From: a virus
Virus record (IMG/VR): IMGVR_UViG_3300014720_000222
Location: 1 to 21,530 of that record
Length of the DNA: 21,530 bases
Direction: 5' to 3' (one strand)
The first letter of the stretch is position 1, and each line of letters starts with the position of its first letter. Below the pieces are notes generated by a model, which ran no database searches, was not told where the DNA came from, and saw only the letters and a list, made by a program, of their open reading frames with translations. This document shows positions 5,887 through 20,029 of the stretch, in pieces. A program made the position numbers and the translations under genes.

Positions 5887-6759
5887 TCAAGCCCACATGA
5901 ACGTGCAATCGCCAAACAGCGGAATACCACTGAGCGAGCCGTTCGGGCATGTGATGAAATTGATGTATGCGTCGTCCTCGACTTCGGGGGCCTTGCCCGC
6001 GCTGTCAAGGTAAAAGTCCTTCTCGGTCGGGGCTGTGATTTCCCTGACTGTCAGTTCAGCAAGTGGCTTGACGAGCACCAGTGTAAACAATCCCACGTCC
6101 GTCCCGTTGGTGCACTGCACAGCCTCAATCGACCGCACGCCCTTGTCACCCGCCTGAAGGGTCATAAATGGGCCGTTTCGATCCGCCCCCGTCTGCTGCG
6201 TGCATAGCAACGTGCCGTTGACACTTGCTGCCGTGGTCATGGTGTGAAGCGGCGTTGTGCGCCCTGCCGTGCCGTCTGAGTTCGTGTACGTCACGAAGAA
6301 TGTGTCGCCAACCAAGCCGTGGGGAGCAACAAGGATCGGCATGATCTGCACGCCCGCCCCTGTCACTGAGCGTGTCAGCACTTCCGTGTTGACCATTGCC
6401 TGGCTGTCTGACGTGCCCATGTCCACAAACGGATAAAACATGAGGTAGTCAAGAACCGTCACCCTTTGGGGCACTGCTGCCGCCGCGACAGCCATTGCCG
6501 TCATGCGGCGCAGGTATTTCTTGCCCCCCGTGACATTGCCCCCGTGCTGTATCCCGCCGTCACCTGACCGCGTGAGAACCTTCGCCTCAAGCGGTGCGGC
6601 TGCGTAATACTGAGGGGCCGGGTTGCCCGGAGCCATTGAGTAGTCAAACCAGACGCCTGCCACAGTCGCAACAGCAGGCACCTTGCGATAGGTCACGTAT
6701 TTGGTATTGCCCGTCAACTCAGCGTCAACGAATGCCGCGATATTGGCGAAGCCTGCCAC
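5887..6759 (-). CDS. Virion-like protein, short paralogue (290 aa), GTG start
   Basis: The start is a GTG at 6759 that overlaps the upstream TAG; AGAGG lies 7 bases before it, which decides the start. The 290-aa product (MAGFANIAAFVDAELTGN...) is mainly beta and small residues. Landmarks shared with the 379-aa neighbour are HGGNVT (72-77), YPFVDM...QAMVN (109-124), GAGVQ (134-138), VTYTNSDGTAG (156-166), NGPFMTLQAGDKGVRS (195-210), LVLVKPL (227-233) and a terminal GDCTFMWA. It lacks the inserted LPTGLS module. Both genes lie in a block placed between portal and scaffold. A tail or head-surface structural role is inferred from context; I recognise no named family. Confidence 0.7.
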   Translation of the reverse strand: MAGFANIAAFVDAELTGNTKYVTYRKVPAVATVAGVWFDYSMAPGNPAPQYYAAAPLEAKVLTRSGDGGIQHGGNVTGGKKYLRRMTAMAVAAAAVPQRVTVLDYLMFYPFVDMGTSDSQAMVNTEVLTRSVTGAGVQIMPILVAPHGLVGDTFFVTYTNSDGTAGRTTPLHTMTTAASVNGTLLCTQQTGADRNGPFMTLQAGDKGVRSIEAVQCTNGTDVGLFTLVLVKPLAELTVREITAPTEKDFYLDSAGKAPEVEDDAYINFITCPNGSLSGIPLFGDCTFMWA

Positions 6760-6956
6760 TAGACGACCTCTTCAATCGGCGGATCGCTTTGGACCGCCAG
6801 AACTGCCTGCGCTGCGTGAGTGAAATCACCGCCGCAATTGTCCATGAGCCATGCGATGTGCTCGGCAGTCGGAACCGCCGCACCGTCCAAGCTCATACGC
6901 TGCCTGAGTTTCGCTTCCCACAACGCTACCGTTTGCTTTGTAGAGGGGTTGGGCAT
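6759..6956 (-). CDS. Small hypothetical protein, 65 aa
   Basis: MPNPSTKQTVALWEAKLRQR... is a 65-residue, mostly helical protein with an acidic end (PPIEEVV). The ATG at 6956 overlaps the upstream stop (TGATG); a GTG directly before it (6959) is an equally close alternative. The stop is overlapped by the GTG of the next gene. Tight packing on both sides and normal codon use support it as a real gene. No domain is recognised. Residues 30-55 look like a short helix pair (AEHIAWLMDNCGGDFTHAAQ). Confidence 0.6.
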   Translation of the reverse strand: MPNPSTKQTVALWEAKLRQRMSLDGAAVPTAEHIAWLMDNCGGDFTHAAQAVLAVQSDPPIEEVV

Positions 6957-11697: not shown

Positions 11698-11744
11698 ATC
11701 TGCCTGTTATTTTCTTGCGCGCCATTGCGGGGCCGCATTTGCAT

Positions 11745-11918
11745 TTATTGCGCAACCGCTTCCACCTCATGCACCGCCACGACGATGCGGGTTCCGTCTG
11801 TAGCTTTTAGCCATATCTGGCTTGAGCCAGGGACGGGGTTAGGGTGTTCGACGGTGGCGATCTGGCCGAAGGTTGACCAATCGTCGGACAGGATGCGGAC
11901 GGGGGTGCCTGGTGTCAT
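11745..11918 (-). CDS. Small hypothetical protein (57 aa) between tailspike and TerS
   Basis: An open frame from the ATG at 11918, overlapping the tailspike stop by 4 bases (ATGA), to the TAA at 11745 encodes MTPGTPVRILSDDWSTFGQI... ending HEVEAVAQ. The pattern (short beta strands VRIL, GQIATVE, QIWLKA, RIVVAVHEVEAV, with Gly/Pro turns) looks like a small SH3-like barrel. The overlap, in-phase packing and codon choice suggest a real gene. I know no family for it. It is followed by a 47-base gap to terS. Confidence 0.6.
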   Translation of the reverse strand: MTPGTPVRILSDDWSTFGQIATVEHPNPVPGSSQIWLKATDGTRIVVAVHEVEAVAQ

Positions 11919-14900
11919 GCTGCCACAGCCTTGATGACGGCGAAGTTGAAAACAGGCTGCTCCGTGGTCGTTCCACTAAAGGTTCGGAACGTTATGTCGA
12001 AGCTGCCAGCAGCAACAGCCGACACGTTGATGATATACTTGTCGGTTCCCGACTTCTGCGACGCGATCACGGTGTCGGTAGCCGCGACAGTGCTGTTCGT
12101 GACGGTGAAGGTTTGCTCAGTCGTTGATCCAGCCGCCGACACAAGCGTGATTGCGCCATTTGTCTTGTTTAAAATGACGCCATTCGTGCGGCCCGTAGTT
12201 TGAGTGATTGACCCGCCAGAACCCGTGCCGTAGCCAAGGCCGCCGACGCCTGTGACAAGAACGTCGCCTGTGCTTGTAATACGCATACGCTCCGCAAGCG
12301 TGTTGGCGTTGATTGTCCCGAATGTTAGCGATGCTGAACGATTGCCTGCGGCGGCATACGTATCAGCCGACACGGCTCTAACGTAGGCGCTCTCGTTTCC
12401 TGCACCGTTTGATGCATCAAGGTTGAACCTCAACCCGACGCCCTGATTGCTTGCGGACAAGCCGTTGTTTGCAATTGTGAAAGCGTCGTTGATAACGGCG
12501 GCATCATTCCAGCGCTGCTCGGCCTTGCCATCTGTGTTGACGCCAAAATATCTGACGCTTGCGCCGCCTTGCACCCGCAACTTGTCAGTGCTGAAACTTG
12601 TCGTATTTATGCCGACGCCATTGGTGTCAATGTAAACCTTGCTGGCACCATTTGTTGCAATGCCGACCACATTGCCGCCAGACGGAAAATATATTCCAGT
12701 ATCCAGATCGCCTTTGTGAGCAACGGATGGCGCTGCCGCCGTGCCGTCGCCGAAGCTGCCAACACCGTTGACAGTTATGACGGCGTCGGGATCGCCTGCC
12801 GCTGTCCCGCCGCCAAACGACGTTCCTACGCCATTCATTACACTACGTTGCACGGTACTGCCTGCAATGCTGCTAACCTGCTCAATTCGCGTCGTTCTGT
12901 TGCTTCCCGTCCCCCAATCGGCGACAGCCAAAATCCGTTGGCGATAGGCCACGATATTCTGCGCGGCGCTGGTGCCTAGTAGCGTTTCGTACCTAATGCC
13001 CTGCGGCGATCCGCTTGAAGCAGAGCTTGTCAGGCCGTTGTTGGTGTTTCGCACCTGTTCCAGCTCGGCGTTGTCATCGAAACGCATCGCGATAATCGGC
13101 GACCCTGGAACAAGGTTGACGGTGTACGTTCTCCCGCCGTTAAACGCCAAGGCGAGGCTTGAACCTGGCGCGAAAGAGGCGTGCGTTCCCTTTATCCGCA
13201 ACGCCGAACTGTTGTTGTTTGCGCTCGTTGAGGTATCGCGAAACCCATACTGGCAGTTGGCACCGCAATCGGCGGAAACGTCGGCAAGCATTGTGTTGCT
13301 GACCGTATATGTGCCGCTTTCTTCCGCGAACCTGACCGCCGCGCAATCAGCAGCCAAAAACAGCGTGTCGTAGTTGAGGCGCTGAATGCTGATGCCCGCA
13401 AGCACGTTGCCGTCGCACGGCGTTGAATTGACACTGCTGCCCTGAATTATGACACCCGCCAAGCCAGCGCCGTCAACGCTGATATTTGTGACGCTGTTGA
13501 ACGACGCGCCGTGCGTCATTTTCAATCCGAACAGCCCGCAGTTACCAAATTGGTTTCCGGCGAATGTTGAATACCGCGCAAATGCGTCGATGCCCTCACC
13601 GACTTCGCGGATGACGTTGTCGTTTATTGAGCAACGTGTGGCTGAGTAGCCGACATTGATGCCGTCCGTCTCCATGAACCAGTTGTTGTAGCCAGTGCTG
13701 CTGAATTTGATGTTTGAGATGCGGTTGTTGCTCACGACAACTTGAGTTGAACCGACAGAATTTACGATGTCGTTATCGATCTCAACGCCGTCGGATTGCA
13801 CCAATGCGTATTGTACGTAAATGGTATCCGTCGCTCCGGCCGCTGAACCGAGCGTAATGTTTTGCGTGCCAGCATTATATGTGAAAGTCCTGGTGGGTCT
13901 GAGGTTCTGGCCAGACGCTTGCACGCGCACCAAGACCGGCGAACCCAGTGTTGCGGCCAGCGGCAGCGTCCCGGCGGCAGGAACAGTCGTTCCCGTTATG
14001 CCAGTATACGTTTCAACATACCCCGTCATGCCGTCCGACATGACGCAATCGCGTACGACGTTGTCCTTGATTTCTCCGCCGACAATCGAGGCCAACCGTA
14101 TGCCGGTGACCATGCAATTGAAGCCGAATATTTCGTTGTTGCAGATCACGACATTTGTGGCGTTACGGCTACTGATGGCCGATACCACTTTTCCGCCGGA
14201 AGGGCTTGCGTGGGTGATCCTAAACCCGACGATTCCAGCATTGTCGATGGCCGCATACCCGCCAGACAGCTCCCCGGAAATGTTTACCCCGACAGTGTTC
14301 GTGGCGTAACGCTGCCCGGACGTGTTTCTCGGATCAGTGTTGGAGTGCGTCATCGACAGCGTGGCCTTGCGGTTTCCGCCGTCGAGAATCACGTTGGATT
14401 TCAAATCGATCCTTGAGGCAACCGTGTAGACGCCTGGTGGAAAATAGATCACGCCGCCGCCTGCCGCGTTTACGGCGTCAATGGCTGCTTGGATATAGGT
14501 TACGTTGTTCGCGCCAGTTTCGGATGGCGACGCGCCAAAGTCGCGGACAGAAACAACATCCTTGAGCTTCGCATCCACCGTCCGCGTGCTGGCACCCGTG
14601 CCTGCCTGCGTAAACGCCACCTTGGTCGGGGCGATAGCGGCAGAAGCATTCACGTCCGCGTCTACAATAACGCCGGTATCTATCGACCACACGGAGCCTG
14701 AACCGGAAACGACAATGTCGCCCTTGTCGCCGTCGGTGATCTGCCCGCCGCCGCCTGCCGACGTGCCGGAATAAATGCTGCTGCCAGCACGCGGCTGGAT
14801 GTAGATGCGGAATTCTTCAATGTCCCCGCCGTCCGTCTGCACCTGAAAATCCACGTGCCCGAAGCCGCTCAGACGCTGGCTGAAGCGCGTCGTGGTGATG

Positions 14901-15103
14901 GTAGGGTTGGTAATCGTAATGCCTGAAGGAACGCGGCTTACCGCCGTTATTTGCGCCCCATCCAGATAGGACGCCATGTCTACGACATAGGTCAGGCTGT
15001 CTTCGTCTTCCTGATAGGCCGCGAATTCCTGGGGGTTGATCTGAGTGAGGCCCCGCAGGCTGTGGCGCTTGTTCTGCGCGAGGACGATGGTCCTGTCAGC
15101 CAT
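11915..15103 (-). CDS. Tailspike with pectate-lyase-like beta-helix, 1062 aa
   Basis: This is the largest gene and the first of the late operon. Domains seen in order are an N-terminal virion-anchor-like domain (about 1-103; SLTYVVDMASYLDGAQI, 36-52, resembles phage fibre-tail adaptor domains); a Gly hinge (112-121) and a GDKGDIVVSGSGSVWSID segment (125-142) like fibre linkers; then KDVVSVRDFGA (181-191), the usual entry to a Pectate_lyase_3 right-handed beta-helix; then 'AIDAVNAAGGGVIYFPPGVY' (207-226), NNEIFG- and DNVI-type turns; and a C-terminal fibre region with KGDLDTGIYFPSG, AERMRITSTGDV and a terminal beta domain ending FNFAVIKAVAA. It probably binds and perhaps cuts host surface polysaccharide. 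No autocleavage or chaperone domain is recognised. GAGG lies 10 bases before the ATG. Specificity cannot be read from the sequence. Confidence 0.85.
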   Translation of the reverse strand: MADRTIVLAQNKRHSLRGLTQINPQEFAAYQEDEDSLTYVVDMASYLDGAQITAVSRVPSGITITNPTITTTRFSQRLSGFGHVDFQVQTDGGDIEEFRIYIQPRAGSSIYSGTSAGGGGQITDGDKGDIVVSGSGSVWSIDTGVIVDADVNASAAIAPTKVAFTQAGTGASTRTVDAKLKDVVSVRDFGASPSETGANNVTYIQAAIDAVNAAGGGVIYFPPGVYTVASRIDLKSNVILDGGNRKATLSMTHSNTDPRNTSGQRYATNTVGVNISGELSGGYAAIDNAGIVGFRITHASPSGGKVVSAISSRNATNVVICNNEIFGFNCMVTGIRLASIVGGEIKDNVVRDCVMSDGMTGYVETYTGITGTTVPAAGTLPLAATLGSPVLVRVQASGQNLRPTRTFTYNAGTQNITLGSAAGATDTIYVQYALVQSDGVEIDNDIVNSVGSTQVVVSNNRISNIKFSSTGYNNWFMETDGINVGYSATRCSINDNVIREVGEGIDAFARYSTFAGNQFGNCGLFGLKMTHGASFNSVTNISVDGAGLAGVIIQGSSVNSTPCDGNVLAGISIQRLNYDTLFLAADCAAVRFAEESGTYTVSNTMLADVSADCGANCQYGFRDTSTSANNNSSALRIKGTHASFAPGSSLALAFNGGRTYTVNLVPGSPIIAMRFDDNAELEQVRNTNNGLTSSASSGSPQGIRYETLLGTSAAQNIVAYRQRILAVADWGTGSNRTTRIEQVSSIAGSTVQRSVMNGVGTSFGGGTAAGDPDAVITVNGVGSFGDGTAAAPSVAHKGDLDTGIYFPSGGNVVGIATNGASKVYIDTNGVGINTTSFSTDKLRVQGGASVRYFGVNTDGKAEQRWNDAAVINDAFTIANNGLSASNQGVGLRFNLDASNGAGNESAYVRAVSADTYAAAGNRSASLTFGTINANTLAERMRITSTGDVLVTGVGGLGYGTGSGGSITQTTGRTNGVILNKTNGAITLVSAAGSTTEQTFTVTNSTVAATDTVIASQKSGTDKYIINVSAVAAGSFDITFRTFSGTTTEQPVFNFAVIKAVAA

Positions 15104-15120: not shown

Positions 15121-15161
15121 AGGAAAAGGAAAAAGGCCCGCTGCGGGTGAGGCAACGGGCC
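15121..15161 (-). terminator. Intrinsic terminator just upstream of the late operon
   Basis: On the minus strand, GGCCCG (15161-15156) pairs with CGGGCC (15040-side arm at 15140-15135), extended after one mismatch by TGC/GCA, around a 7-base loop. It is followed by TTTTTCCTTTTCCT (15134-15121). It points left, towards the tailspike start at 15103, so it would stop transcripts before the late genes unless they are antiterminated. It lies about 90 bases downstream of the promoter candidate near 15252. Confidence 0.75.
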
Positions 15162-15251
15162 AAGAGTCAACGCAGCCCGCAACGGGGTGGAGCCGTCGTG
15201 GACTTCGTCATGCCAACAGGGAGGAGATGATTCGGGCGCGAAGCGCCTGAA

Positions 15252-15288
15252 TAGCGAAAATATAGCATTTCAATCGCATGGCTGAAAA
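15252..15288 (-). promoter_or_regulatory. Candidate late promoter (extended -10)
   Basis: Minus strand: TGC-TATATT forms an extended -10 (hexamer 15264-15259, TGC at 15267-15265). An 18-base spacer separates it from a weak -35 TTTTCA (15288-15283, 4 of 6 matches). Predicted start is near 15252. It begins 15 bases after the stop of the gene at 15303 and faces the terminator at 15121-15161 and the late genes. Confidence 0.5.
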
Positions 15289-15302
15289 GCAAATTCGCTT
15301 TT

Positions 15303-15782
15303 TCAATTTTCGGGCAGCTTCAGCACGTCAGCATGGTGTGTGAGTGCGATTCGCATGATGGGCTTGCCAGCCGATGGGTGGTCGCCGCGATTGCGTGCCC
15401 ATACCGAATGGGTTTCGCCCAGCCCTGCAATGGCAACGAGGCAGTCATAGAGGTCTTGACCGTGGGCGGTGCGGTAGATTTGTAGCTTCGCGCGCGCGGC
15501 CAGCTGGTGGTCGGACACGTGGTCCGTACCGCCCCGGATGGCGGGTTCATAGCTCTGCGCGCGGACGGGATGCCCACAGGCGACATAGTAAGTCGCCTGG
15601 AACTGATAGCCCGCCTCGGCTTGACGGCGGGTAATAGTGCCATCGGCCAAATACTGGCTGATGGCGCTCTCAATGGCAAACCACGGCTTCGGCGTCCTGT
15701 CCCTGCCGGGATCTGCTCTGAGGATGCCGCCCTGACGTTCGCGTTCGGCGGTGGGGCGGATGGGTGTTTCTGGCTGACTCAT
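15303..15782 (-). CDS. Unknown protein at the Q-antiterminator position, 159 aa
   Basis: The last gene of the replication operon encodes MSQPETPIRPTAERERQGGI... with a basic, disordered head (1-33), a helix-turn-helix-like middle (AIESAISQYLADGTITRRQA, 36-55, then AGYQFQATYYVACG), a second helical region (DHQLAARAKLQIYRTA, 91-106; YDCLVAIAGLGET, 112-124) and a helical end (PIMRIALTHHADVLKLPEN). The outline, IT-x-x-Q-x-x-AG-x-x-F followed by two helical blocks, resembles DUF6456-type alphaproteobacterial proteins, but I cannot confirm this. It overlaps the upstream gene by 4 bases (ATGA). Its stop lies 15 bases from a promoter that is followed by a terminator in front of the late genes, which is where lambdoid phages put Q. 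An antiterminator or late activator role is inference from this position. Confidence 0.6.
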   Translation of the reverse strand: MSQPETPIRPTAERERQGGILRADPGRDRTPKPWFAIESAISQYLADGTITRRQAEAGYQFQATYYVACGHPVRAQSYEPAIRGGTDHVSDHQLAARAKLQIYRTAHGQDLYDCLVAIAGLGETHSVWARNRGDHPSAGKPIMRIALTHHADVLKLPEN

Positions 15783-16732
15783 GAAACCACCTTCAACACA
15801 AAGTTGTCACCGAAATGCGCGCATAACCTGTCGCCGTAAACCGTATCAATCTTATCGCGCGCAAATTTGGACGCGACGACAAGGCTGGCAACACTGCCGT
15901 TGGGCTTGGCAGTGGCAAACCACGCTTGCCATTCTGTAGGCGGCAGGCTGGCCTTGAAGGCTTGCCAGCGCGGAATATTGTCGGCCCAGTCGGGGCCATG
16001 AGCAACGGGCCGCGTGGGGGCTTCGTCGGCCTGCAAGTAGCCTTCCCAGCGGCGTTCAGACAGCCAGCCTTGCGCGTGTTTGGCCGGGTATTCGCGGCCC
16101 CGCTTGCGCGTTTCGGCGTCGAGGAAAGCCTTGTATTTCGCCACTGCGGCAAGAAGGCTTGGCAATGGGGGCAAATGGGACTTTTGCGCCCGCCAGGACT
16201 TCAAAGCGGCGGCTTTGGACATGTTCGGACTGCGGGGGTACGCTTTCCAAAACACTTCGAAGTCAGCCAAACGCCCGTCCGGGCCGTCAGGACCGGACAT
16301 GTGTTTTATATCTTTAGATATATGTGAGTTGTGAGTTGTGTCAGCCCCAAGTGTTACCTTGGGTACGACTTCAGGTAATGCATTATCCCTCTTGGCTTGA
16401 CGTGCCGCCACACCCAACGCTGAACGAGCCATGAGGCTGTTAAAGCGTTCAACTGCTGTGGCGCGCTCTTCCTCAAGGCGCTTCTGCCGATAGCCGTCCT
16501 GTCCTTCGTGAAAGAAAGCGAGGACGGTATCCTTGTCTTCGGCCCATTCTGACTCAGAAGCGCGGGCTATTGCCCGCAGCGCGGCGTCCACCTTTGGTAG
16601 CGGCCGGTCCTGCTTCCATGAGTACATGAGCAACAGAAGGTATTGTCCATGCTGCCTGGCTGTCAGGTGCATGGTGTCTGCCAGGTAGTCCGCTATCCAA
16701 AGCGGCATGAAGTTTTCGGGGCGGTTGGTCAT
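15779..16732 (-). CDS. Phage replication protein: DUF1376 domain plus DnaA-domain-I-like C-terminus (317 aa)
   Basis: The N-terminus (about 8-95) is a clear DUF1376 domain: MPLWIADYLADTMHLTARQH, then GQYLLLLMYSWKQDRPLP. This domain is common in phage O-like replication initiators. The middle has FWKAYPRSPNMSKAAALKSW (161-180) and HAQGWLSERRWEGY (219-232), also seen in phage replication proteins. The C-terminus (about 255-316) reads RWQAFKASLPPTEWQAWFAT, then LVVASKFARDKIDTVYGDRL, ending FVLKVV. That matches the pattern of DnaA domain I (W-x-x-h ... W-F ... L-x-h-x-x-x-F-x-x-x-h-x-x-x-Y), which binds DnaB and DiaA-type partners. It may recruit the host helicase. The start overlaps the upstream stop by 4 bases. 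The family call for the N-terminus is strong, for the C-terminus moderate. Confidence 0.82.
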   Translation of the reverse strand: MTNRPENFMPLWIADYLADTMHLTARQHGQYLLLLMYSWKQDRPLPKVDAALRAIARASESEWAEDKDTVLAFFHEGQDGYRQKRLEEERATAVERFNSLMARSALGVAARQAKRDNALPEVVPKVTLGADTTHNSHISKDIKHMSGPDGPDGRLADFEVFWKAYPRSPNMSKAAALKSWRAQKSHLPPLPSLLAAVAKYKAFLDAETRKRGREYPAKHAQGWLSERRWEGYLQADEAPTRPVAHGPDWADNIPRWQAFKASLPPTEWQAWFATAKPNGSVASLVVASKFARDKIDTVYGDRLCAHFGDNFVLKVVS

Positions 16733-17244
16733 GCAGGCACCAGCGCGTGTGGAAAATCGCTGGCCGCAATCAATATCGGCGGGTCACCCCTGAAGCGCCT
16801 GACATCAAACGCAAGAAATTTCGTGCCGTCTTCATTGTCCTTGGCATGCGGCGCCACTTCTTTTCTGTCCGCACCTCGGATCAGGTGCGCGCGCCAAGAA
16901 TGCAAGTTAATCAGCATCCAGTGTGCAATGGTGTTCCCGCTTTCGGCGGCGTGTCCGTAAAACATCCAATCCCCGTAACCATTTACCAGTTTGGACAATT
17001 CAGTTTCAGCGCCACTGTCCCTATGTGAACGGACTGTAAAGTCGTACGGGTACTTTTGTGCATATCCGTATCTTCTCATGCGGCAGGCAATGCGTTTGTC
17101 GCGCGCCGCCAAAATGATCAAATCAGTCGCCCGCTTGCAGTCCTCTTCAATCGGTGCTGGTTCCAAAAGGTATGGGCCGACAATCCGCTTCATTTCAGGG
17201 ATGTAGCGGTCAGACCACGCCCTATCCTTTTGGTACTCGGTCAT
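16729..17244 (-). CDS. Conserved phage protein of unknown function, 171 aa
   Basis: MTEYQKDRAWSDRYIPEMKR... has a conserved-looking core: PAPIEEDCKRATDLIILAAR (29-48), RIACRMRRYGYAQKYPYDFT (51-70), VRSHRDSGAETELSKLVNGY (71-90), GDWMFYGHA (91-99), and HSWRAHLIR (115-123). The order acid, TDL, a strand with IACRMRR, then DFTVRS and a GAETE helix recalls the spacing of restriction-fold nucleases, but no clean PD-(D/E)xK motif is present, so I do not assign it. It overlaps both neighbours by 4 bases (ATGA) inside the replication operon, between the methylase and the DUF1376 protein. A DNA-related role is inference from context. Confidence 0.7.
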   Translation of the reverse strand: MTEYQKDRAWSDRYIPEMKRIVGPYLLEPAPIEEDCKRATDLIILAARDKRIACRMRRYGYAQKYPYDFTVRSHRDSGAETELSKLVNGYGDWMFYGHAAESGNTIAHWMLINLHSWRAHLIRGADRKEVAPHAKDNEDGTKFLAFDVRRFRGDPPILIAASDFPHALVPA

Positions 17245-18380
17245 TCCGCAGCCTCAAACTTTGAGGTTTCATTACCGTATTGACTAAAACCATCGCGCGC
17301 TTCCCGGCTGAACACGTCAATACGCGGACCCGTGGTGACGCGACGTATCACGTCATAGAATTCGTCCGGCTTGCGGCTATGTTCGCGCCGGGGGGCTTCA
17401 AAGCAGACATTGAATGCTTTAGTGTCCGCAAATGTCGGCGCCCCACGCCGGGCATAGATCGCGAATTCGCAATTGTACTGGGGCAAGCCAAAAGGTTGAA
17501 ATCCGCCCGGCTTGTGCCAGACCATGGTGAGCACATACCGAAAGCCCCAGGCGTCCAGCAGCCGCAACGACATGGGCAGGAATTTGTGCGTGGTCCAGCA
17601 AAACAGGTGGCAGTCATCTGCCGCCATATCTGCGACAGGGAACGCGGCCAGCTGGTCTTCCGCCATGATCGGATAATCGAAAGCAACCTGATGCTCACGA
17701 ACATCACGCTCGATCTTTTCCATTGGCCACGGCGGGTCGATGACGATCGTGCTGAATTTGCCCGCTGGGATGTGTACCGGCGTGGCGGCGATGGCTAGGA
17801 TTTCTGCGCGTCGAACTTCTGCCTTGTGAATGCGTATCCGCTTCGCCGCTTCCAGAATTTCCTTTTCGCCCTTGGCGACGATTTCCGTCTGTTCGACCTT
17901 GGGCAAGGTCGCCACGTCAGCGGCGGCACTGACAGATACCCTGCCCGCTTCAACGGCTTTCACTAGTTCGGGCGTCCCCTGCTTATGAACTGTCTTGGCG
18001 CGCTCAACACTCGCACGACCAACATTGAGCATCGTTGAAGCTACCTCAATTGAGGTACCTTGAACTTTGTCACCGCGTTGCCCGTCTTGCAGGGACGCAA
18101 TTTTGGCCCCCGCCATCGCCCTCTGGCTTTCGTCCAGGTGCCGCCGCGCCACGTTCTTTGACACGACAAACGCCACCGGGTCAGCCCCTTCGAACACTTC
18201 GAAGTGCGGCTCTACCCCAGCTGCAACGCACGCCCTGTAGCGATTGCGCCCGTCCAGAATATCGCCGTCGAGCGTGACAATGGCTTCAAGCAATCCCTGC
18301 TTGGCCACGTCAGCAACAAGCGCGTCAAATTCCGCGCCTTCGATCAAAGGAAACACGTCTGCAAGGGGGTGATATTTCAT
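17241..18380 (-). CDS. ParB-like domain fused to MT-A70-type adenine methyltransferase (379 aa)
   Basis: Residues about 1-100 form a ParB/Srx-like N-terminal domain: DGDILDGRNRYRACVAAGVE (38-57) and KNVARRHLDESQRAMAGAKI (75-94), the two ParB box-like motifs. A helical linker follows (105-200). Residues about 205-370 form an MT-A70 family N6-adenine methyltransferase with the catalytic DPPW motif (IVIDPPW, 212-218), HLFCWTTHKFLP (258-269), WGFRYVLTMVWHKPG (278-292) and EFYDVIRRV (340-348). It probably methylates adenine in phage or host DNA using S-adenosylmethionine. The ATG at 18380 overlaps the upstream stop (ATGA), which supports this start over one at 18467. No restriction enzyme gene is adjacent, so it looks like an orphan methylase, perhaps for protection against host restriction. 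Confidence 0.88.
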   Translation of the reverse strand: MKYHPLADVFPLIEGAEFDALVADVAKQGLLEAIVTLDGDILDGRNRYRACVAAGVEPHFEVFEGADPVAFVVSKNVARRHLDESQRAMAGAKIASLQDGQRGDKVQGTSIEVASTMLNVGRASVERAKTVHKQGTPELVKAVEAGRVSVSAAADVATLPKVEQTEIVAKGEKEILEAAKRIRIHKAEVRRAEILAIAATPVHIPAGKFSTIVIDPPWPMEKIERDVREHQVAFDYPIMAEDQLAAFPVADMAADDCHLFCWTTHKFLPMSLRLLDAWGFRYVLTMVWHKPGGFQPFGLPQYNCEFAIYARRGAPTFADTKAFNVCFEAPRREHSRKPDEFYDVIRRVTTGPRIDVFSREARDGFSQYGNETSKFEAAE

Positions 18381-18631
18381 GCGCGTACCGTTGGGTTGGG
18401 GTTTAGGGCATGCACCGGCCAGCCGCCGACCATGTCGGAGCGAATGCAGAAAACCTGGCCGGGGCAATGGGCCGCGCGGTCACCAAGCTCGATGGACGTG
18501 GCCACGTTTGTGGTGACAATCTTGCCCTTGTCAGCCCAGTAATCGCGGATGCGCTGGGCCAGTACTTGTGCGTGATGCAGCTGGCACCAATCGCGGCTGG
18601 GAAGGCTGGTCGGGGTCTGGCGTCCGGTCAT
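18377..18631 (-). CDS. Hypothetical 84-aa protein
   Basis: I start this gene at the ATG at 18631, which overlaps the DUF1064 stop by 4 bases. The same frame is open much further upstream, but that part runs antiparallel in composition to the DUF1064 gene and is not coding. The product MTGRQTPTSLPSRDWCQLHH has a helix AQVLAQRIRDYWADKG (21-36), then ATSIELGDRAAHCPGQVFCI (44-63) and GGWPVHALNP. The last part could be a short beta sheet with two Cys. It is tightly coupled with the methylase (ATGA overlap). No family is recognised. Confidence 0.68.
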   Translation of the reverse strand: MTGRQTPTSLPSRDWCQLHHAQVLAQRIRDYWADKGKIVTTNVATSIELGDRAAHCPGQVFCIRSDMVGGWPVHALNPNPTVRA

Positions 18632-19023
18632 ATCTCTTGGACCTCGATGTTCAGCAAAGCGCGCATCAGTTTCTTTTTCAGTCTGTAGACCGGCGTCTGC
18701 ACGCCTTTGCTGTCCACCACGACGCGCTTGCCGTTTTTGAAAAAAACCGCGTCGGCAATGTAGGTCGTGACCAGCTGGCCGTTGACCGACAGCCGGAACT
18801 TCGGCTGACGTTCCAAGCGGGTAATCAAGCCCGCCTTCTCGCGCAGCTTTAGGGCGCACCAATCGGCATATTCTTTCTTGCTGGCGAAGCGGCCTTCTTC
18901 GGTCACGATGGGCTGGTTTTTGTATTTCCTGCGTGAGGGAGCGGCTGGCGCACCGGACAGGGTATCGCCAGCCGCCGACGCGCGCGCTGCCTTCGGGGGG
19001 AATGTGCGCGCGTGTTTCTTCAC
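18628..19023 (-). CDS. DUF1064 family PD-(D/E)xK-like nuclease (131 aa)
   Basis: After a basic disordered head (1-30), the sequence shows RKYKNQPI (32-39), GRFASKKEYADWCALKLREK (44-63), GLITRLERQPKFRLSV (65-80), YIADAVFF (88-95), VVVDSKGVQTPVYRLKKKLM (101-120). This matches the DUF1064 pattern, with candidate active-site residues E51, D91, D104 and K106 (D-x-K followed by G and T). Such small phage proteins are thought to be structure-specific or Holliday-junction-like endonucleases. A role in processing replication or recombination intermediates fits the operon. The start at 19023 overlaps the preceding gene by 4 bases. Confidence 0.82.
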   Translation of the reverse strand: MKKHARTFPPKAARASAAGDTLSGAPAAPSRRKYKNQPIVTEEGRFASKKEYADWCALKLREKAGLITRLERQPKFRLSVNGQLVTTYIADAVFFKNGKRVVVDSKGVQTPVYRLKKKLMRALLNIEVQEI

Positions 19024-19241
19024 TTCGCCGCCACCTTGAGTTCAAGGATGTCGCTCTGTTCGTTTTCAAGGATTGGACGCGGGTTTGCTGGCGCCTTCTC
19101 GACAACGCAGCTGCGAACGTGGGCCAGGATGCGGTCGATGAGGATCTCACGCTTGGACAGATGGCCCCGGCCCGCGAGCGGGTCGGCGTCCACTTGCACG
19201 AAAATCTGTTCAAGCGTTGCTTTTGTCAGTTGTGTATTCAC
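19020..19241 (-). CDS. Hypothetical 73-aa protein, probable GTG start
   Basis: A GTG at 19241 has AAGGAG 7 bases upstream and follows the preceding stop by 19 bases, so I prefer it. An ATG at 19316, also with AAAGGA upstream, would add 25 residues but overlap the upstream gene by 56 bases. The product (M)NTQLTKATLEQIFVQVDADP... has HLSKREILIDRILAHVRSCV (27-46), a helical, charged segment, and an acidic end. No family is recognised. It lies between the DnaA domain IV gene and the nuclease gene. Confidence 0.6.
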   Translation of the reverse strand: MNTQLTKATLEQIFVQVDADPLAGRGHLSKREILIDRILAHVRSCVVEKAPANPRPILENEQSDILELKVAAK

Positions 19242-19260
19242 GTCAGTCTCCTTGCGGCTG

Positions 19261-19788
19261 CTAAACCATGTCGGCTTGGGAAGCTGGTTGACTGGCTTCC
19301 ATGGTCGCTTGGTCATTGGCTTTCCTTTCAGAAATAACCCCCGCCTTACGCTTCGCCGCGCGGTTTTCCCGCGCCAGCTTTATCGTTCCGTGTTCGTACA
19401 TCGTGGGACGGCGCGTCATGTTCATGACGCTGGTGTGATCCATGCCGCCAAAGAATTGACCGATGCGCGGGAAGGACCAGCCCTTCACCTCGCGCAACCG
19501 CTTCATGACGTCACAGCGTGCATTGACGATCCGCGTGCAGCGCGACCTCGTCATGATGTCTTTGGTGGTCAGGTTGGTGCCGTTAATGGCGTTGTGCCAC
19601 CAGAGGATCTCGGCCACGAGTTCGCGCGTGGCGCGCGCGGGCGTGTTGATGTCATCGCTGGCGCGGCGCTGGTTCCACACCGCGCTTTCCGGCACGCCAA
19701 GGCGTCGCGCTTCGGCAATCGTGTCTTCATCATTAGTTGGTAAATCCGCGAAGCGTGAGGCAGCGCATGGACGGGATGTCTGGTCCAT
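19261..19788 (-). CDS. DnaA domain IV (DNA-binding) protein, 175 aa
   Basis: The region about residues 55-128 matches the DnaA C-terminal domain: ELVAEILWWHNAINGTNLTT (56-75), KDIMTRSRCTRIVNARCDVM (76-95), KRLREVKGWSFPRIGQFFGG (96-115), MDHTSVMNMTRRP (116-128). The G-x-F-x-G-x-DHTSV signature is the helix-turn-helix that binds DnaA boxes. The AAA+ part of DnaA is absent, so this is a stand-alone DNA-binding domain. It could compete with host DnaA for its boxes or mark the phage origin. A long N-terminal tail and a basic C-terminal tail (KLARENRAAKRKA) flank it. I start at the ATG at 19788; the in-frame extension to 19902 would overlap the Cro-like gene. Confidence 0.82.
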   Translation of the reverse strand: MDQTSRPCAASRFADLPTNDEDTIAEARRLGVPESAVWNQRRASDDINTPARATRELVAEILWWHNAINGTNLTTKDIMTRSRCTRIVNARCDVMKRLREVKGWSFPRIGQFFGGMDHTSVMNMTRRPTMYEHGTIKLARENRAAKRKAGVISERKANDQATMEASQPASQADMV

Positions 19789-19792
19789 GGTT

Positions 19793-20029
19793 CTATTCTG
19801 CTGCCTGAACTGTTTGGGGAATGGATGCCAAGGACAGGCCAAGAAGGTCATCGGCAGTGACCGCACCGCCGCTGGCTTCGTAGACCTTGCGAATGACATC
19901 AACGCTGACGCGGTTTCTGTACTTCTCAGGGCGACACAGCTTGCTGACGCACGCCTTGCTTAGGCCCGCTTCGCGCGCGAACTCGACCTGGCGCTTGTTT
20001 CTGCTGATAAGGTATTGGCGAAGGTTCAT
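19793..20029 (-). CDS. Cro-like HTH regulator (78 aa)
   Basis: The first gene of the leftward replication operon encodes MNLRQYLISRNKRQVEFARE..., with a helix-turn-helix at about 13-35 (QVEFAREAGLSKACVSKLCR) and a third helix (VSVDVIRKVYEASGGAVTAD, 41-60). It resembles short Cro/YdaS-type XRE proteins. It is divergent from the CI-like gene at 20105, with a 75-base control region between them. It most likely represses the repressor gene or the early operons. No Shine-Dalgarno is visible before the ATG, and the predicted promoter leaves an almost leaderless transcript. Confidence 0.8.
   Translation of the reverse strand: MNLRQYLISRNKRQVEFAREAGLSKACVSKLCRPEKYRNRVSVDVIRKVYEASGGAVTADDLLGLSLASIPQTVQAAE

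Follow-up and report, generated by a model that had tools for sequence, protein, structure and literature searches.

A DUF6456 (GafZ-type) protein and a terminated leader in the probable late-gene switch region of a probably temperate tailed phage

The late genes of the virus record IMGVR_UViG_3300014720_000222 lie behind a short intergenic region that follows the early operon. The window, that is, the whole stretch of DNA analysed, is this 21,530-b record. Its early operon genes are tightly packed, all on the minus strand, and the operon is closed by a 159-aa ORF that shares a 4-nt overlap with the preceding DUF1376 gene. A gap of 199 nt follows the 3' end of the 159-aa gene, and then the late genes begin. 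The main genes are as follows.

15779..20029, minus strand: early operon with Cro-like, DnaA-HTH, 98-aa, DUF1064, MT-A70, 171-aa and DUF1376 genes
15782..15303, minus strand: 159-aa ORF with ATG start, last gene of the early/replication operon, candidate late-gene antiterminator (DUF6456, GafZ-type)
11915..15103, minus strand: tailspike gene with its ATG at 15103, first late gene past the terminator

Past the tailspike gene, the minus strand carries a small terminase candidate, the large terminase (terL), portal, capsid and further late genes. The gap between the spike and the small terminase candidate (217 nt, 11698-11914) is similar in size to that between the 159-aa gene and the spike. The 408-aa protein encoded at 17241-18467 on the minus strand contains a ParB-like N-terminal part fused to an MT-A70 methyltransferase; a different gene is present there in the related contig L005. 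The initial annotation compared this region with the Q-pR'-tR' layout of lambdoid phages, and the gene, promoter-like site, strong terminator and spike were all confirmed as anatomy. The window probably belongs to a temperate tailed phage, and the module is probably the on-switch for virus particle production. The elements between the 159-aa gene and the spike are listed below.

15283..15288, minus strand: -35-like TTTTCA (promoter scan)
15265..15290, minus strand: imperfect inverted repeat GCTTTTCA-10 nt-TGAAATGC, spanning the -35/-10 spacer and abutting the -10
15259..15267, minus strand: extended -10 TGC-TATATT (promoter scan; TATATT at 15264-15259, alphaproteobacterial CTATAT)
15230..15252, minus strand: 5' hairpin of the leader (fold z = -3.4), at the expected transcript start
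15219..15226, minus strand: CTCCTCCC, anti-Shine-Dalgarno-like, its TCCTCC part invariant in all aligned leaders
about 15169..15209, minus strand: middle stem-loop of the leader in the MFE fold, alone not above chance (z = -1.1)
15130..15161 (stem to 15135), minus strand: intrinsic terminator, tR'-like, GGCCCGTTGC-loop-GCAGCGGGCC + TTTTT, with a 10-bp GC-rich stem

The 5' hairpin, CTCCTCCC, the second stem and the inverted repeat in the spacer were absent from the initial annotation. The terminator is real by all computed tests. It sits about 97 nt past the -10. No other stem on either strand of the window combines a length of at least 10 bp, at least 8 G-C pairs and a TTTTT directly behind it; 100 dinucleotide shuffles contained no such stem, and the local fold has a z of -4.9.

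The promoter-like site begins 14 nt past the end of the 159-aa gene, with 18 nt between TTTTCA and TATATT, and a transcript start would be expected near 15252. Promoter-like sites occur at chance level as judged by the hexamers alone (3 found in 10.5 kb vs 4.1 +/- 1.7 in shuffles); the site is credible because of its position and its counterparts in related phages. Promoter activity here is what we infer from these features. The chance frequency, together with the coupling of the 159-aa gene to the replication operon by the 4-nt overlap, would also suit an account in which the promoter match is due to chance, early transcripts stop at the hairpin, and the late genes are expressed from an unrecognised promoter or by read-through. 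The promoter scan detected no promoter-like site between the terminator and the spike ATG at 15103, a point on which the initial annotation could have failed, so the chance-match account would leave the late operon with no promoter candidate upstream of the spike. It also leaves unexplained the homology to GafZ and the conservation, in relatives, of a stretch that begins at the -35 region and includes the first hairpin. The account is considered very improbable.

The initial annotation suggested that the product of the 159-aa gene might be related to DUF6456-type proteins, and this relation is supported. The Pfam DUF6456 model (PF20057) matches the protein with 22.7 bits (E=1.1e-4), below the curated cut-off of 26.3 bits. 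An independent profile was built from 25 strong chromosomal DUF6456 domains and searched against the phage proteins and 2000 shuffles; it matched the 159-aa protein with the same E-value of 1.1e-4, the best shuffle being 0.095. Comparison of the phage proteins with chromosomal DUF6456 by hhalign gave a probability of 96% (P=4e-9), or 84% (P=8e-6) with the window left out. In the direct search with the chromosomal profile, the remaining phage proteins scored no better than the shuffles; they are placed in the family because of their link to the window protein, the profile-profile comparison and a weak Pfam DUF6456 match of the L005 protein (E=0.056). From these comparisons, the 159-aa protein is classed as a divergent member of the DUF6456 superfamily, under the Pfam cut-off. 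The earlier statement that it resembles no known Q family also holds, as DUF6456 was the only Pfam family that hmmscan returned with an E-value limit of 1, and none of the classical Q families PF03589, PF06530 and PF06323 was among the matches. A PDB sequence search with the protein gave no match.

DUF6456 is present in 61 of the 299 sampled Pseudomonadota genomes and, among 14 well-known control genomes, in Caulobacter only. This distribution suggests that the host belongs to the Alphaproteobacteria. A prophage search of genome contigs for the host detected none with DUF6456, and the terminases found were only distant. Two anonymous Pseudomonadota chromosomes (L119 and L120) contain a DUF1376-like gene followed by a weak DUF6456 ORF, like an operon remnant.

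DUF6456 is a domain of Rhodobacter GafA (PMC9638019, PMC9765227), which binds the omega subunit of RNA polymerase and activates promoters (PMC9638019). GafZ is the Caulobacter counterpart of the C-terminal part of GafA and has the same domain; its antitermination was demonstrated in 2024 (PMC11150451). GafZ spreads over its cluster with RNAP, NusA, NusE and NusG and lets terminators be read through; it depends on an inverted repeat in the -35/-10 spacer (PMC11150451). The idea of the initial annotation is thus largely borne out, but a wholly new antiterminator class is not supported, since GafZ, with the same domain, is already an antiterminator. The inverted repeat in the window spacer is a candidate binding element placed like ZBE/QBE; a binding role is suggested because the GafZ binding element has a matching published position (PMC11150451). 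The DnaA-HTH protein of the window showed no likeness to GafA N-termini (probability 0.2%), and no GafY-like partner was recognised in the window by this comparison with GafA N-termini. The DnaA-HTH match is also missing from several DUF6456 phages, part of them fragments. As no relative of the GafA N-terminus was recognised, promoter activation, if required, would come from elsewhere.

The predicted model of the 159-aa protein is weak (pLDDT 64.5), with no significant Foldseek match in PDB and no VIA-align match at a Z of at least 5. The model of the L005 homologue is better (74.5). Foldseek against PDB returned nothing significant for it, and its top VIA-align matches were sigma factors (8x6g, Z 6.9; 1rp3, Z 6.4) and Q21 (6p18, Z 6.7 over 95 residues; 6p1b, 6.3; 6p1a, 6.2; 6jnx, 5.5), values that may reflect a common arrangement, as Z is below 8 for a helical protein. 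A helix-turn-helix likeness among sigma region 4, Q21 and lambda Q has been described previously (PMC7171158), and the resemblance of the L005 model to sigma region 4 and Q21 is suggestive. The fold comparison with Q21 proposed earlier thus gave a suggestive match for the homologue and none for the weak model of the window protein. An unrelated enzymatic fold, which would have spoken against the initial annotation, was not turned up for either model by the fold searches. In the BFVD fold search, the second-best match was a phage protein named DUF6456 (E=7.7e-5). Gp44 of Rhodobacter phage RcRhea (KR935216; 172 aa, L132 34728-35400) also surfaced in a fold search and was rejected as DUF6456, having no Pfam DUF6456 match. 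It is placed at the end of the replication genes, ahead of the late genes, and is followed by TTGACT and an inverted repeat, GAACCG-CCCC-CGGCTC.

A single-sequence search of viral contigs and INPHARED phages with the 159-aa protein yielded no relatives. Contigs L003-L006 were reached via the terminase, and the remaining relatives via their DUF6456-type proteins, alignments and leader DNA. Between the window protein and those of the other phages, sequence identity is about 25%. Six groups were distinguished: the window; L003; L005 with L006, L062, L063, L067 and L070-L074; L077/L078; L089; and L133/L134/L139. All six share the order DUF6456-type gene, promoter-like region, 5' hairpin, TCCTCC, terminator hairpin with T tract, and late genes, with the caveats that L062 stops before the T tract and that the assembly of L089 has a frameshift in the gene. 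The late genes after the terminator begin with a spike in the window, L003, the L005 group and L089, and with terS/terL of other types in L077 and the L133 group. In the named phages Pam1 and phiAO1, which have related terminases, no DUF6456 match above noise was detected in the parts compared.

The initial annotation had asked whether gene, promoter and terminator always travel together. They do in the six diverged groups, but not in every contig. In L004 (1-563), the promoter, leader and terminator are conserved behind an unrelated A+T-rich ORF, and a DUF6456 gene may lie further upstream, beyond the contig end. The DUF6456 gene of L133 and L134 is separated from the leader by a pair of small ORFs of 90 and 80 aa (6457-6890), and L139 is without them. 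A long degenerate GC-rich repeat array of GAACTCACGGCAGGC-like units is located directly upstream of the DUF6456 gene in L003 (about 1198-1640).

The 5' hairpin occupies the matching place in the relatives with a differing sequence. Two blocks are conserved in their leaders when the window is excluded, TAGCG..CGAA.TGCGT right after the -10 and YTCCTCC; the window leader retains only TCCTCC as a conserved block. A conserved CTAA lies in the spacer between TTGCA/TTGACC and YAKAAA in the L005-like groups and L077, and in L077 it belongs to the palindrome TTAGA-AACCA-TCTAA. A model based on sequence alone and made from the relatives' leaders failed to match the window leader, and the exact leader motif of the window was absent from all other viral contigs searched. 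What ties the window leader to the others is its place and its motif rather than a tested homology in sequence. Long-range pairs given by RNAalifold on the leader alignment A5 were set aside because hairpins of unequal length misalign.

The weak -10 of the relatives (YAKAAA) would suit an activated promoter, as would the fold resembling sigma region 4 and the known activity of GafA, which binds omega (PMC9638019). The DUF6456 protein could accordingly be a GafA-like promoter activator that recruits RNA polymerase, with the hairpin serving as a leaky attenuator or as the end of early transcripts. If activation were all, there would be no sense in the strong terminator that every group keeps between the promoter and the late genes, and GafZ, a split form like the 159-aa protein, antiterminates (PMC11150451). 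Activation as the sole role is judged unlikely.

The leader may also have a role as RNA. The Rfam family closest to the window leader is ar14 (RF02344).

15129..15246, minus strand: full-length ar14 match below the cut-off (36.4 bits, E=1.2e-5, gathering threshold 58.8)

Membership of the window leader in ar14 was rejected on this score. The ar14 pattern of three hairpins each showing CCUCCUCCC was not found either; there is one CUCCUCCC, and the other loops carry CUCCACCCC and CCUCACCC. In the relatives, the L005 leader reaches 14 bits and the L077 leader gives no match. The ar14 family was founded on the sRNA NfeR1, which is 123 nt long, carries anti-Shine-Dalgarno loops and has the promoter CTTAGAC-N17-CTATAT (PMC10746234); in the same format, the window site reads CTTTTCA-N17-CTATAT. 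In Stx phages, the sRNA StxS is produced between pR' and tR' (PMC7873438). The short transcript might itself be an anti-Shine-Dalgarno sRNA in the style of ar14/NfeR1, the DUF6456 gene alongside having another role. The full-length match, the NfeR1-like promoter spacing, the invariant TCCTCC block and the StxS precedent agree with this proposal. The score below the ar14 cut-off and the poor matches of the relatives disagree with it, and the late operon would be left without a promoter. As a replacement for a late switch it is quite improbable, and it is compatible with such a switch rather than exclusive. The UCCUCC is invariant, which suggests some role for the terminated RNA, and since the leader resembles an anti-Shine-Dalgarno sRNA, the terminated transcript may regulate by itself as StxS does.

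The explanation we consider fairly probable is that a GafZ-type protein runs a Q/pR'/tR'-like late-gene switch of the phage. RNA polymerase would start near 15252 and by default stop at the leader terminator about 120 nt on. Once transcription has reached the far end of the early operon, the DUF6456 (GafZ-type) protein would accumulate, bind in or near the -35/-10 spacer and load onto polymerase leaving the promoter. The loaded polymerase would then pass the leader terminator and later ones, and the spike, terminase, portal and capsid genes would be expressed. The late-switch explanation is favoured because of the DUF6456 homology and the experimentally supported antitermination by GafZ (PMC11150451), the terminator that passes the computed tests, the recurrence of the element order in six groups with different terminases, the conserved promoter spacer of the relatives with its palindrome in L077, the lack of a promoter between terminator and spike, the resemblance of the homologue model to sigma region 4 and Q21, and a NusG/RfaH-like antiterminator in a comparable slot of phage phiLM21. 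It is weakened by the chance-level hexamers, the Pfam score under the cut-off, the weak window model without a Q21 match, the window leader unmatched by the relatives' model, the role of GafA as an activator through omega in Rhodobacter (PMC9638019), the GafY-like partner that was not found, and the L004 leader behind another gene.

GafZ antitermination and the Q layout are both known. No description of the two combined in phages, along with a conserved leader, was found in the literature searched, which covered few subscription journals and preprints; DUF6456 is named there in just two papers, and phages are the subject of neither. A wider proposal, which we regard as doubtful, is that DUF6456/GafZ proteins form one more Q-type family of late antiterminators in phages, probably those of Alphaproteobacteria, and are the source of the domesticated GafZ/GafA, with the leader (5' hairpin and UCCUCC) as a conserved functional element, either a nut/put-like loading aid or a trans-acting anti-Shine-Dalgarno sRNA for as long as the late genes stay silent. 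If true, it would add one more Q family at the equivalent genome position, provide a phage setting for a regulator so far known only from gene transfer agents, and make the late switch of alphaproteobacterial phages recognisable by anatomy. In a cassette of about 700 bp, two questions become testable: the dependence of GafZ-type proteins on GafY, and whether activation, antitermination or both are the mode of action of GafA/GafZ.

Several known systems resemble this locus. The window leader is like ar14/NfeR1 in its length, CUCCUCCC motif, terminator and CTATAT promoter spacing, whereas it differs in its score below the cut-off, its single full anti-Shine-Dalgarno motif and its location as a phage late leader. 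Like the StxS region, it has a pR'-type leader that ends in a terminator before the late genes and possibly functions as an sRNA (PMC7873438); no sequence relation is claimed, and the sRNA role here is putative. As in the Q-pR'-tR' regions of lambda, 21 and 82, the gene closes the early operon, the promoter has a terminated leader and the late genes follow. The 159-aa protein has no Pfam sequence match to these Q proteins, the Q21 fold likeness being suggestive and seen in the homologue only; the Q families themselves occupy equivalent genome positions with no significant sequence likeness between families (PMC7171158). GafZ of Caulobacter crescentus has the domain in common with the 159-aa protein and works at a promoter before a head-tail cluster with terminators to pass. 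The window system differs from it in being phage-borne, in its match below the Pfam cut-off, in the gene directly before the promoter that it presumably serves and in having no recognisable GafY partner. In Sinorhizobium phage phiLM21 (L144, 17500-23500), gp34, annotated as an antiterminator and NusG/RfaH-like, follows DUF1376 and DnaA-HTH genes. Gp34 belongs to an unrelated family and is separated from terS by an HNH gene, a tRNA and other genes, but its slot ahead of the late genes is comparable to the one that the DUF6456 gene occupies. This agrees with operons of this kind ending in a slot for an antiterminator.
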